DNA from: a virus
IMG/VR virus record: IMGVR_UViG_3300002180_000059
Coordinates: 1-24,541 of that record
Length of the DNA: 24,541 nt
Direction: 5' to 3' (one strand)
The notes under the pieces were generated by a model. It searched no databases. It worked only from the letters and a program-made list of their open reading frames with translations, and had not been told where the DNA came from. Shown here in pieces: positions 6,622 to 11,558 of the stretch. The first letter of the stretch is position 1. Each line of letters begins with the position of its first letter. A program made the position numbers and the translations under genes.

Positions 6622-8153
6622 TGGACCAGCTCGTTGACCAATTCGGACGCCCGATCAAAGCCAAGGAACTGATCCGGGAACAGGCCGAGCCGGGGATCAC
6701 CTCGGTGCGCCAAGCCTGGTCCCAGACCGTGGCCTCGGGCCTGACCCCGCAACGTCTGGCCAGCATCCTGCGGGCTTGCGATGAAGGCGACATCGAACAG
6801 TTCATGGTGCTGGCCGAGGAGATGGAAGAGCGCGAGCCGCATTACATGTCCGTGCTGGGCATGCGCAAGCGAGCCATCTCTGGTGTGCAGCCTGTGGTGA
6901 CCGCCGCCTCCGAGGATGCGTGCGACGAGAAGATTGCCCAGGCTGTACGCAATCGGATCACCGGGCACGACGGGTTTCACAATCTGATCGAGGACATGCT
7001 CGACGCCCTGGGTAAGGGCTTTTCCGCGACCGAGATCATGTGGAAGCGCAGCGCGACTGAATGGTGGCCTGACAAGTTCAAGCGCCGACCGCAGCAATGG
7101 TTCCAGTTCGACCAGGACACAGGTGAACAAATGCGCCTGCGTGATGAAGAGAACATGATCGACGGCGTGGACCTGAAGCCCGCGAAGTGGATTGTGCATC
7201 GCTCAAAGATCAAGTCTGGCTTGGTGTTCCGGGGTGGTCTGGCCCGCGTGGCTGCCTTCAGTTGGATGTGCAAAGGCTACGCGCAAAAGGACTGGATGGC
7301 CTTCATCGAAACCTATGGTCTGCCGCTGCGCCTCGGGCGCTATGGCCCTGAAGCGACCAAGGAAGACGTGCAGAAACTCTTCACCGCGGTTGCCAATATC
7401 GGCACCGACGCCGCCGCCGTTCTGCCCAATTCGATGGATATCGAGTTCACCGAAAATGCGCGCGGCACAGGTGCGAAGATCTTCGAGGATCTGGCGCGCT
7501 ATGTGGATGAGCAGATTTCAAAGGCGGTGCTGGGTCAGACCATGACCGCCGACAATGGATCGAGCCAAAGTCAGGCCGAGGTCCACAACGAGGTGCGCCA
7601 TGATATCGCGGCCTCAGACGCGCGGGCTGTCTGTGCCACCATAAACCGTGACCTGGTGCGTCCGTTTGTGTCTTTGAACTTCGGCGGCGACGCCTTCCCC
7701 AAGATCTCGATCGAAATCGAGGAGCCGGAAGACACGGACATGATCCTGAAGAACGTCTTCCGGATGGCAAGCGTCGGGGTGAAGTTCAGGCAGGAGGACG
7801 TGCGCCGCAAGCTGAAGATGTCAGATCCCGATGACAACGACGAAATCTTCGGTGACCTCCCAAAGACGGCGCCGGCCACGAACACTGCGCTGAACAACGC
7901 CCAACCCGTCGCTGACCCGATTGATGAGATCGAGGCGGAAATGCTGGACGACTGGGAGGAAGTGATGGGCGACCTGGTTGAGCCGCTCGAGGACGTGATC
8001 GCCGAGGCCACCAGCTACGAGGAGGCGCTGGAAAAGCTCAACGCCGCGATCCCAAGCATGCGTGACAGCAGGCTGATTAACACCCTCGTAAAGGGCATGT
8101 TTAAGGCCCGTTCAATCGGCGATACCGACACGGGCCTCCAGGGCGATGACTGA
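6621..8153 (+). CDS. Portal protein (Mu gp29-like, DUF935)
   Basis: This 510-residue protein forms the dodecameric portal through which DNA enters and leaves the head. It belongs to DUF935 (Mu gp29). The start MDQLVDQFGRPIK is typical, and the ATG at 6621 has AAAAGGA (6606-6612) eight bases upstream, better than the GTGs at 6615 and 6618. Other family marks are MRKRAISG near residue 90, ALGKGFSATEI near 133, the WMCKGYAQKDW and ETYGLPLRLG block, and QSQAEVHNEV in the stem/crown part. The C-terminal 90 residues are acidic. It overlaps the terminase by one base and the minor head gene by 8. Confidence 0.92.
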   Translation: MDQLVDQFGRPIKAKELIREQAEPGITSVRQAWSQTVASGLTPQRLASILRACDEGDIEQFMVLAEEMEEREPHYMSVLGMRKRAISGVQPVVTAASEDACDEKIAQAVRNRITGHDGFHNLIEDMLDALGKGFSATEIMWKRSATEWWPDKFKRRPQQWFQFDQDTGEQMRLRDEENMIDGVDLKPAKWIVHRSKIKSGLVFRGGLARVAAFSWMCKGYAQKDWMAFIETYGLPLRLGRYGPEATKEDVQKLFTAVANIGTDAAAVLPNSMDIEFTENARGTGAKIFEDLARYVDEQISKAVLGQTMTADNGSSQSQAEVHNEVRHDIAASDARAVCATINRDLVRPFVSLNFGGDAFPKISIEIEEPEDTDMILKNVFRMASVGVKFRQEDVRRKLKMSDPDDNDEIFGDLPKTAPATNTALNNAQPVADPIDEIEAEMLDDWEEVMGDLVEPLEDVIAEATSYEEALEKLNAAIPSMRDSRLINTLVKGMFKARSIGDTDTGLQGDD

Positions 8154-9345
8154 GTTCACCGACAAGCCGGACTATGCGTTTGACCCTGGACCGCCGCCGG
8201 AGGTCTCTCGCTACTTCCGCAACAAAGGGATGCGCCCGTCTTTTTCCTGGCTTGATGTCGAACCTGAGGAACATGCGGTCGCCTTCACTGTTGCCAAGGC
8301 CGCAAAGCTGGATGTGGTCGAAGCCATCAAAGTAGAGCTGCAGCGCTCGATCGACGAGGGGCTGCCATTTGAGACCTTCCAGAAGAACCTGCGCCCACGC
8401 CTGCAGACGCTTGGATGGTGGGGCAAGGCAGAAATGACCGACCCTGTCACCGGGGAACTGATCGACGCCCAGCTCGGATCGCCGCACCGCCTGCGCACCA
8501 TCTACCGGGCCAATCTGCGGACGGCGCGCGCGGCCGGGCAATGGGAGCGGATCCAGCGCACAAAGAACGCGCTCCCTTATCTGGAATATCGACTTGGTCC
8601 CAGCGAACGCCACCGGCCTCACCACGAGGACAAGGAATACCTGGTCCTGCCCGTCGATGATCCGTTCTGGCGCAAGTGGATGCCGCCCAATGGCTGGGGC
8701 TGCAAGTGTTGGGTGCGCCAGCTCACCCAGCGCCAGGCAGACGCGCGGGGAGGTGTGAGCGAAAGCCCCGCTGTGCCGACCTCGGAATTCCGCAACAAGC
8801 GCACCGGCGTTGTGACACAGGTCCCCCAGGGCATTGATCCAGGCTGGGATCGCAATCCCGGAGATCTGCGTCTGCGGGCGCTGGAACAGGTGACCGAAGG
8901 CAAACTGATCTCGGCCGACCCGGCTGTCGCGCAGGCAGCGATGCGGGACATGGCGACGAGCTGGCGCGCGGCGCGTGTGCTTTCGGGAAATGCGCCCGGC
9001 ACTGTTCCCGTCACTATGCTGGACGACACGCTTCGGGGTGTCCTGGGAGCGGACACAAGGCAGGTTCTTCTGTCCGATCAGACCGCCATCAAGCAAGGTG
9101 CAAGCCACCCCGAACTGTCGATCGAAGACTATGCCCGCCTAGAAGGCTTGATCCAGTCAGCAGCGGTCTACCAACAGGATGCGCGCAACCTGGTGTTTAT
9201 CGAGAAGGTGGAGGACTTGCCTTGGATCGCAGTAATCAAGGCAACAACCCAGCGTCATGAGCTCTTTTTGACGACTTTCTACCGAGCGAGTTCCGGCCGG
9301 TACGTTCGGCGGCTCCGGGAACGGGGAACTGTGGTAAGGGATTAA
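8146..9345 (+). CDS. Minor head protein F (Mu gp30-like) with probable C-terminal PBECR nuclease domain
   Basis: The first 200 or so residues match the Mu F head morphogenesis family (PF04233). Its hallmark lies at about 157-200: HHEDKEYLVLPVDDPFW, then PPNGWGCKCWVRQL with C186 and C188. Residues about 300-390 are a separate domain (VLLSDQTAIKQ, HPELSIEDYARL, NLVFIEKV, WIAVIKATT, ELFLTTFYRAS). It resembles the PBECR-type (phage barnase/EndoU/colicin/RelE-like) nuclease domains known on the ends of phage head and portal proteins. If so, the protein might carry a nuclease inside the virion or into the host. Bases 9181-9300 count 66 of 120 G+C, lower than the nearby core gene, which suggests an exchanged module. 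Family F is sure; the nuclease call is inferred from pattern. Confidence 0.88.
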   Translation: MTEFTDKPDYAFDPGPPPEVSRYFRNKGMRPSFSWLDVEPEEHAVAFTVAKAAKLDVVEAIKVELQRSIDEGLPFETFQKNLRPRLQTLGWWGKAEMTDPVTGELIDAQLGSPHRLRTIYRANLRTARAAGQWERIQRTKNALPYLEYRLGPSERHRPHHEDKEYLVLPVDDPFWRKWMPPNGWGCKCWVRQLTQRQADARGGVSESPAVPTSEFRNKRTGVVTQVPQGIDPGWDRNPGDLRLRALEQVTEGKLISADPAVAQAAMRDMATSWRAARVLSGNAPGTVPVTMLDDTLRGVLGADTRQVLLSDQTAIKQGASHPELSIEDYARLEGLIQSAAVYQQDARNLVFIEKVEDLPWIAVIKATTQRHELFLTTFYRASSGRYVRRLRERGTVVRD

Positions 9346-9678
9346 GCGCGCCCGGAGGGACGTCACATCCCCCGCGACCCTAGGCCGGTTAGACGGGATA
9401 CTTGGCTCGGGCGCATTCACGAAATAGCCCTTTTAGTGGGTAATTTCAAGCTCAGGCGGGAAATGTGAGGGACCGACCACTCTTAGCTTCGCCGTTAAAC
9501 ACCTATTAAAGGGGTCAGGAGAGGGGTGGACAGATTTTCCGGCCCACCATACCCTACGCCCAGGCGAGGCCAATTTTGACGCCTTGAGCGCGCGCGCCTT
9601 TTTCTCCACCACTCACAACCACCACCCCTGAATTCCTTCAGGGGCGATTGAGCGATCCCAGACGGGCATCTTCGTCCC
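9346..9678. other. 333-base non-coding gap between minor head and protease genes
   Basis: I see no convincing gene on either strand. The gap is lower in GC than its neighbours (30 of 60 at 9421-9480). It contains a GCGCGCGCGCC stretch followed by five T (9588-9603), which could be a weak terminator. A 5-base inverted repeat AGGCG/CGCCT (9562-9566, 9580-9584) overlaps it. The interrupted palindrome copy 2 is at 9625-9644. No clear sigma-70 promoter is visible. The likely content is the end of the lysis/packaging transcript and an activator-dependent promoter for the head operon. I found no tRNA, no attachment site and no remnant gene. Confidence 0.5.
9625..9644. promoter_or_regulatory. Interrupted palindrome, copy 2 (candidate Mor target, PI-like)
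   Basis: CCCCTGAA-TTCC-TTCAGGGG is a perfect 8-base inverted repeat with a 4-base spacer. Its core (9627-9645) has the same arms as copy 1 upstream of the endolysin gene, CCTGAA-N4-TTCAGGGGC, with a different spacer. It is centred about 44 bases before the I-protease ATG. In Mu the PI late promoter lies at the same place. No T run follows, so a simple terminator is less likely. Confidence 0.5.
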
Positions 9679-10650
9679 ATGGTGAACACGCTCGCAACCC
9701 AATTTCCAGTCATGGCTCTCAACTTCCTGGACGCAGATGTCCCGGAGTGGATCCAGCTCACCCCGCGCGGCCCCGGTATCGAGGGGCGCGACGGGCGCAA
9801 GTGGGTTTTGGCAAACCCTGAAGCTGTCGTCGCGGCCTTCCGTGACCACGGTGCAGATTTGCCCATCGACATGGAACACTCGACCCAGATCAAAGCGTCC
9901 AAGGGCGAACCTGCCCCGGCGGTTGGCTGGATCAAGGACATGGAAGTGCGCGAGGGCGAGCTTTGGGCGCGCGTTCACTGGACCGACGAAGGCCGCATGC
10001 GGGTTTCTGATCGCCAGTATCGCTACATCAGCCCGGCCTTCACCTTCGAAAAGGCCTCCGGCGAGATCCTGAAAATGGTCTCGGCCGGCCTCACCAACAA
10101 CCCGAACCTGCACCTGGCTGCCCTCAATCGTGAAGGCGCTGAAGAGGAGATTGAAATGGACAAAGCCGTCCTGGAGGCCCTGGGCCTCGCAACCAACGCC
10201 AGCGCCGCCGATGCGGTGGTGGCGATCAACAAGCTGAAGGAGGACAAGGCAACCGCTTTGAACTCCGCAGCGAGCCCTGACACCGACAAGTTTGTGCCGA
10301 TGGAAACCCATCAACTGGCGCTGAACAAGGTCGCCGGTTTCGAGAAGGTCGAAAAAGACCGCGAAGACGAGGCGGTCAACGCCGCCGTCGATCAGGCCGT
10401 CGCGGACGGCAAGATCGCACCGGCCAACAAGGACTTCTACCTGGCTGCCTGCCGGGCTGAAGGTGGGCTGGAACGGTTCGCCGCGACCATGAAGGACGCG
10501 CCGGTCATCGCCGCGCCGTCCGACCTGGACGAAGGCGGTCCCGCCAAAACCTCGAAGGCCCTGACCGACGAGCAGGTCGCCGCCTGCCGCGCCCTGGGCA
10601 TGGATGAAGATGACTATGCCACCGCGCTGGCAGAGGAGAAATCGGCATGA
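9679..10650 (+). CDS. Head maturation protease/scaffold, Mu I-like (gp32)
   Basis: This 323-residue protein matches the Mu I (gp32) family: IDMEHSTQI near residue 60, PAVGWIKDMEVREGELWA, then RYISPAFTF and VSAGLTNNPNLHLAALN before residue 155. It would cleave scaffold and head proteins during capsid assembly. The C-terminal half is acidic, Ala/Glu-rich and helical, as in scaffolds. No start has a strong ribosome binding site. I take the first ATG (9679); the ATG at 9712 is an alternative that keeps the whole family core. It ends in an ATGA junction with the major head gene (10647-10650). A second, in-frame start at 10156 is listed separately. Confidence 0.88.
   Translation: MVNTLATQFPVMALNFLDADVPEWIQLTPRGPGIEGRDGRKWVLANPEAVVAAFRDHGADLPIDMEHSTQIKASKGEPAPAVGWIKDMEVREGELWARVHWTDEGRMRVSDRQYRYISPAFTFEKASGEILKMVSAGLTNNPNLHLAALNREGAEEEIEMDKAVLEALGLATNASAADAVVAINKLKEDKATALNSAASPDTDKFVPMETHQLALNKVAGFEKVEKDREDEAVNAAVDQAVADGKIAPANKDFYLAACRAEGGLERFAATMKDAPVIAAPSDLDEGGPAKTSKALTDEQVAACRALGMDEDDYATALAEEKSA
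10156..10650 (+). CDS. Nested scaffold protein, Mu Z-like (internal start in I)
   Basis: An in-frame ATG at codon 160 of the I gene is preceded by AGGAG (10145-10149) with ideal 6-base spacing, better than anything at the full-length start. It would make a separate 164-residue protein beginning MDKAVLEALGL. The product is acidic and mostly helical, without the protease part. In Mu, the scaffold Z is made exactly this way, from an internal start in the 3' half of gene I. The position, just after the protease domain and before the major head gene, fits. Its production is inferred from the ribosome binding site and the Mu precedent. Confidence 0.72.
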   Translation: MDKAVLEALGLATNASAADAVVAINKLKEDKATALNSAASPDTDKFVPMETHQLALNKVAGFEKVEKDREDEAVNAAVDQAVADGKIAPANKDFYLAACRAEGGLERFAATMKDAPVIAAPSDLDEGGPAKTSKALTDEQVAACRALGMDEDDYATALAEEKSA

Positions 10651-11558
10651 TCGTTACCGCAGCAGCCGTTGCCGCCCTTCAGGTTGGCTTCAAGAAGAAC
10701 TTCCAGTCCGCCTTCGACGCCACGCGTCCCGACGCGGACTATACCAAGGTGGCCACCACCATCACCTCGACCTCCAAGTCCGAGACCTATGGTTGGCTGG
10801 GCAAGTTCCCGAAAATGCGGGAATGGGTCGGCGATCGTGTGATCAAGGACATGGAAGGCTTTGGCTATGCCATCGTCAACAAGGACTTTGAGGCGACGGT
10901 TGGCGTCAGCAAGACTGACATCGAAGACGACAACCTGGGCCATTATGCCCCGCTGTTCCAGTCGATGGGCCAAAGTGCCGCCGAACAACCCGACGATCTG
11001 ACCTTTGGTCTGTTGGGCAATGGCCGCACCGAGCTGTGCTTTGACGGTCAGTATTTCTTTGACACCGACCACCCCAGCCACAACGAGGCTGGTGGCGACA
11101 TCGTTGTCTCCAATGTCGATGCGTCGGGGGCCGTTGATAACCCCTGGTGGTATCTGCTGGATACGACCAAACCGCTGCTGCCCCTGATCCACCAGGAGCG
11201 CAAGAAGGCGCAGTTCGTGGTCAAGGCTGATCCCAACAGCTCGGACCATGTGTTCATGAAGAACGAGCTGCTCTACGGCGCTGACGCGCGCTGCAACGTG
11301 GGCTTCGGTCTGTGGCAGATGGCTTATGCTTCGAATGCCGCTCTGGATGGCGACAGCCTGGACGCTGCGATCGAAAGCATGCGCTCGCTGCGTGACACCA
11401 ATGGCCGGCCGCTGAACATCAAGCCCAGCCTGCTGGTCGTCGGCCCGAAACTGCGTTCCGCTGCCAACAAGACCGTCAAGGTCATGCTGGATGCGAACGG
11501 CGGCTCCAACGCAAACTACAATGCGGTCGACGTGCTCGACACCGCGTGGCTGGCATAA
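10647..11558 (+). CDS. Major head protein, Mu T-like (gp34)
   Basis: This 303-residue protein is the main capsid subunit, of the Mu gpT family. The beginning fits the family (AAVAALQVGFKKNFQSAFD), as do YGWLGKFPKMREWVGDRV, FEATVGVSKTDIEDD, and the later FDTDHPSHNE and LLVVGPKL segments. It starts in an ATGA overlap with the I/Z gene, which links the dose of scaffold and capsid. The gene ends 12 bases before the next. Length is close to Mu T (about 305 residues). Confidence 0.93.
   Translation: MIVTAAAVAALQVGFKKNFQSAFDATRPDADYTKVATTITSTSKSETYGWLGKFPKMREWVGDRVIKDMEGFGYAIVNKDFEATVGVSKTDIEDDNLGHYAPLFQSMGQSAAEQPDDLTFGLLGNGRTELCFDGQYFFDTDHPSHNEAGGDIVVSNVDASGAVDNPWWYLLDTTKPLLPLIHQERKKAQFVVKADPNSSDHVFMKNELLYGADARCNVGFGLWQMAYASNAALDGDSLDAAIESMRSLRDTNGRPLNIKPSLLVVGPKLRSAANKTVKVMLDANGGSNANYNAVDVLDTAWLA

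Follow-up and report, generated by a model that had tools for sequence, protein, structure and literature searches.

A conserved internal start in a Mu I-type head protease gene, predicted to yield a separate scaffold protein

The window analyzed here, the whole of a 24,541-base virus record (IMG/VR IMGVR_UViG_3300002180_000059), carries a Mu-like head block with genes for a terminase, a Mu-type portal, an F-type minor head protein, an I-type protease, and a gpT-type major head protein. One open frame in this block very probably gives two products in the manner of Mu gene Z, the full protease-scaffold from a start at 9679 and the scaffold alone from a start at 10156 (Table 1). The internal start and its conservation are read from the sequences of the gene and its relatives, and its place at a domain boundary from a predicted structure; by analogy with Mu gene Z, we infer that the short product is made, that it is the more abundant one, and that it is a capsid scaffold. 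Judged by its sequence, the gene is a nested protease-scaffold of the Mu I/Z type, an arrangement already in print for Mu, KS10, and PaMx73; what is added here is how strongly, and in which respects, the internal start is conserved.

Table 1. Features of the protease-scaffold locus (positions in the window)
Feature	Position	Strand	Basis
Mu F-type minor head protein, upstream	8146..9345	+	PF04233 6.4e-17; PHROG 220 4.7e-83
F-I gap preceding the outer start; weak outer ribosome-binding site	9346..9678	+	SD energy -2.5, outer ATG
Outer gene, Mu I-type head maturation protease fused to scaffold, 323 aa	9679..10650	+	open frame; Pfam PF10123 Mu-like_Pro 5.3e-63; PHROG 328 head maturation protease 2.3e-91
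Protease domain (model residues 21-153)	9739..10137	+	AlphaFold2 model; VIA-align; H67, D64, S135 conservation
Internal Shine-Dalgarno-like AGAGGAG	10143..10149	+	sequence; signal kept at junction in relatives
Nested scaffold gene (Z-type, predicted), 164 aa, ATG, stop codon common to outer gene	10156..10650	+	open frame; PHROG 15607; helical model; conserved start
Major head protein (gpT type), ATG overlaps I/Z frame end	10647..11558	+	PF10124 2.7e-111

The internal site reads GAAGAGGAG ATTGAA ATG GAC. Direct reading confirmed what the first-pass annotation had reported, an AGGAG (10145 to 10149) separated by a 6-nt spacer from an in-frame ATG (10156 to 10158) at codon 160, and this is the only AGGAG-N4-10-start found in frame in the outer open reading frame (ORF). 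Synonymous shuffles of the gene keep AGGAG at codon 160 in 33% of cases, and 13% of codon-order shuffles carry some in-frame site of the kind; within this single gene, the codon-160 site is not significant. Since chance is not excluded by the gene alone, conservation was used as the test. The PF10123 match spans ORF residues 25 to 314 and profile positions 1 to 329 of 330, and residues 4 to 155 of the inner product match PHROG 15607 (profile length 167, “unknown function”) at 2.5e-32. PHROG 15607 may comprise scaffold-only annotations, and a name could be given to it. The inner product had been described as a 164-residue helical, acidic protein, which agrees with its 164-aa frame, its 31 D+E versus 18 K+R residues (computed pI 4.4), and its helices in the AlphaFold2 model. 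The protease part of the window protein is also acidic (pI 5.0), and among the 72 genes of set 1 (described below) the inner part has a median pI of 4.8 (below 6 in 69 of 72) and the protease part one of 5.4, so acidity does not set the scaffold apart.

The full protein as modeled by AlphaFold2 (67 aligned sequences, mean pLDDT 88, pTM 0.51) consists of a β-rich part, whose last strand spans residues 129 to 139, a stretch of low confidence (mean pLDDT 57 over 151 to 160), and helices from 162 to 322. With VIA-align, the top match was the varicella-zoster virus (VZV) protease (1vzv; Z 9.6, 105 residues aligned, 2.7 Å), and T4 gp21 reached Z 8.3; among the matches listed, rows 1 to 36 comprised T4 gp21 and otherwise herpesvirus proteases alone, followed by a drop to Z 4.4 in the next row. 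Foldseek gave no match at E ≤ 0.001, its best being the human cytomegalovirus (HCMV) protease at 0.026, and a profile sequence search of solved structures yielded two matches (E up to 1), neither of them convincing. H67 and D64 are invariant and S135 is nearly invariant in the 67 sequences; H67 and S135 are candidates for two residues of a Ser-His-His active site as in herpesvirus assemblins. The part matched by VIA-align comprises residues 21 to 153, which puts codon 160 just beyond the protease domain. The model thus supports a position of codon 160 between a predicted assemblin-like protease domain and an all-helical part, and the earlier wording that the start comes “exactly after” the protease part is borne out by the ends of the modeled strands and helices.

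Two sets of relatives were scored for the internal start. Set 1 was drawn from 58 of 394 genomes of the family of the Aliiroseovarius strain that carries L002 (matches fetched in part) and from phage and plasmid records, with two from profile-free scans; its 78 loci plus the window were reduced to 75 by removal of L003 to L005 (repeats of the window, L002, and L001) and L028 (frame interrupted by stop codons), and then to 72, window and Mu included, by removal of L011, L038, and L067 (>85% identical). Set 2 consists of the best 80 of at least 586 IMG/VR relatives, of which 64 were left after removal of near-copies within the set. Overlap with set 1 was left in (the upstream 24 bases of L098 and L117, for example, are those of L006 and L008), and set 2 is closer to the window than set 1 is and not fully independent. 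The score takes the best ATG, GTG, or TTG in the 24 codons before a conserved LGL motif and its upstream hybridization with the anti-Shine-Dalgarno (anti-SD) sequence, with GTG and TTG penalized; the rule and the pass threshold of -5.5 were fixed before set 2. Control windows were taken elsewhere in the same genes and overlap one another, and the two sets share near-copies, so that p-values are nominal.

In set 1, 60 of 72 genes have a start with an SD-like signal at the protease/scaffold junction, versus 214 of 2,152 control windows; the junction site is the best of all windows in its own gene in 39 of 72, and its SD exceeds the synonymous-shuffle mean in 65 of 72, an effect that is weak gene by gene (Fisher's combined p 0.018; Wilcoxon 3e-11). 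Set 2, from the best 80 of at least 586, passes in 64 of 64 genes versus 154 of 1,838 control windows, with the junction site the best of its gene in 56 of 64, an SD beyond the shuffle mean in 60 of 64, and 59 ATG, 4 GTG, and 1 TTG as starts. Twelve of the 72 set 1 genes fall below the threshold: L070, L045, and L072 have a GTG, L018, L022, L051, and L077 have an ATG with a weaker SD, and in L014, L031, L037, L048, and L054 no convincing internal start was seen. By its conservation, the internal site goes beyond chance at the level of sequence, and the check in relatives that had been asked for came out in its favor.

Clear sites were seen in 124 of 136 genes of the two sets (set 2 from the best 80 of at least 586), 115 with ATG, 8 with GTG, and 1 with TTG, a list that is partly built in because site picking admitted start codons only, with control windows under the same rule. 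A recognized SD core is present in 122 of the 124, and the core lies 5 to 10 nt from the start in 120 of those 122. Among Glu codons at -15 to -6 of the clear sites, the GAG:GAA ratio is 133:36 versus 1,755:1,455 elsewhere. Around the inner start (-25 to +20), mRNA folding is weaker than elsewhere in the gene in 118 of 124 cases and weaker than in synonymous shuffles in 83 of 124, the latter being the smaller effect. The linker peptide varies among relatives while the SD and start codon stay; L002, for instance, keeps CAGGAGG upstream though its linker peptide differs. These sequence patterns are nucleotide-level signs of selection beyond the protein at the internal start.

The outer start is the weaker one. 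Median anti-SD hybridization is -2.7 for the best outer ATG and -7.4 for the inner start; where an outer ATG lay within range (114 genes, the set 2 part from the best 80 of at least 586), the inner SD is stronger than that of the best outer ATG in 112, and the inner start is less folded than the outer in 89. The corresponding values are -2.5 and -9.0 in the window, in keeping with the earlier remark on a poor outer ribosome-binding site, and -1.9 and -7.4 in Mu. A weaker outer start as predicted from sequence fits an excess of scaffold over protease, and it is plausible that the inner product is more abundant than the full protein. Across the family, start codon, SD strength, low folding, and the weakness of the outer start point to scaffold being made in tuned excess over protease, an excess open to direct measurement.

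Self-cleavage is a known route of scaffold release in P2 gpO. The scaffold here might likewise be released solely by cleavage of the linker in the full protein, leaving the internal ATG incidental; the protein has its own predicted protease domain, and herpesvirus pUL26 cuts its own linker at the release site (PMC4498786). We consider this improbable: the SD and start codon are kept where the linker peptide changes, and cleavage leaves the GAG bias, the low folding, and the SD beyond synonymous expectation unexplained; self-cleavage and an internal start may both coexist. Still less probable is that the site is a functionless by-product of a Glu-rich linker. The third of synonymous shuffles of this gene that keep AGGAG would suit such an origin, but the passing fractions of both sets (set 2 from the best 80 of at least 586) against about 8 to 10% of control windows, together with the synonymous-level SD excess, already make it unlikely. 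That the site is mainly a ribosome pause in the full protein, letting the protease domain fold first, would accord with its position exactly at the modeled domain boundary, yet it is hardly credible, because pausing would not call for a start codon at a fixed spacing, whereas the core lies 5 to 10 nt from the start in 120 of the 122 clear sites with a core and every clear site is ATG, GTG, or TTG (partly built in; of the control windows scored in this way, 8 to 10% pass).

In the favored reading of one frame with two products, ribosomes starting at 9679 would make the full protein, protease plus scaffold, and those starting at AGAGGAG-ATG (10156) would make the scaffold alone. The scaffold-only protein and the full protein would associate by way of their shared helical part and, with the major head protein, form the prohead core, and the fused protease domains, fewer in number, would then digest the scaffold.

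Mu I/Z (Mup32/Mup33) is of the same Pfam family, lies before T, and has an in-frame internal start with AGGAG upstream and a shared stop; the Z start (Mup33), annotated inside I in the Mu record, aligns with the internal start of the window, and the Z-like arrangement proposed from the sequence at first pass has its match in Mu. Pfam matches put the I/Z frame after an F-type gene and before the major head gene T, as in Mu. The two are distant (phmmer 58 bits), and Mu has gene G between F and I, whereas the gap after F in the window (9346 to 9678) holds no clear gene. In the Burkholderia phages KS10 (gp28/gp29) and BcepMu (gp32/gp33), the scaffold is embedded in frame in the protease gene, and KS10 combines a weak outer site with an AGGA ahead of the inner ATG (PMC2628397); compared by that description, the KS10 inner product differs in length (148 aa versus 164 aa in the window). 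An internal start with an SD, at a Val codon, is in print for gene 27 of the Pseudomonas Mu-like phage PaMx73 (PMC4378225), at the same relative place as in the window. PaMx73 belongs to the MP22/DMS3 group, and a GTG internal site was seen here in MP22; the group differs from the window in using GTG instead of ATG and in being a siphophage group of about 29% identity. A phage search with the scaffold part alone matched 18 records; wherever annotation was present, the match fell within a single protein (I, protease, or hypothetical) and not in a free-standing scaffold gene. The nested scaffold start is often missed by automatic annotation and should be annotated across this phage group.

Outside phages, the closest parallel is herpesvirus UL26/UL26.5, with a resembling protease fold (in the model) and a shared-3'-end layout; no sequence similarity to the herpesvirus protease was detectable in the profile search of solved structures. 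Herpesviruses make the inner product from a separate transcript and not from an internal start of the bacterial type. A scaffold-tailed protease combined with a nested scaffold that has its own start could be an ancestral device common to Mu-like phages and herpesviruses, which we regard as rather doubtful; if so, the assemblin-like fold and the in-frame layout with a common stop would have been kept, and only the start of the inner product would have changed (internal ribosome site versus separate transcript). Lambda C belongs to a different protease family. Protease and scaffold are encoded by one gene in lambda C/Nu3 as well (PMC8508860), and UL26.5 is an in-frame, 3'-coterminal scaffold gene (PMC4498786).

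Upstream of the outer start, a scan of 9300 to 10700 called no + strand terminator and no sigma-70-type promoter; a terminator before I had been suspected by eye, and the scan called none on the + strand. By eye, a stem-loop without a T run (CCCCTGAA-TTCC-TTCAGGGG, 9625 to 9644) lies about 35 bases 5' of the outer start, and a resembling stem-loop precedes I in some relatives (L007, L065, and L066). Searching phage records by blastn with 9346 to 10660 found no near DNA relative; what it returned, a 38-base match within capsid maturation protease genes of 11 Mycobacterium phage records, is uninformative for the upstream gap.

The F-I gap also contains TTAAACACCTATTAAA at 9495 to 9510, one case of an 11-bp-phased TTAAA element. 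Of 134 non-redundant I-upstream stretches, 50 contain the pattern TTAA[AT]-N4-10-TTAA[AT] versus 1.65 expected from dinucleotide shuffles, with a repeat distance of 11 bp in 42 of 57 counted pairs; with copies retained, a near-identical pattern is present in 64 of 150 I-upstream stretches versus 1 of 150 inside the I gene. It is absent from Kp4866-3, POA1180, and MP22 (three of the seven phage records tested) and lies at 0.497 to 0.508 of the record in martha 12B12, MuM16-2, B23, and 1.028.O. A candidate gyrase site has been published for Ab30 (PMC5977238); it failed as a match, the element being absent. Going by its sequence, the TTAAA element is possibly a conserved strong gyrase site, a candidate whose mid-genome place comes from the phage records, the window itself being a fragment; alternatively, it is a putative binding site of a late-gene activator. 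Mu, which has its strong gyrase site mid-genome, agrees in place and loosely in sequence: its TTAAACCGGTATTTAAC, too loose a match to be caught by the pattern, stands at 0.488 in the arm right of the annotated gyrase cut site, about 36 bp from the cut.
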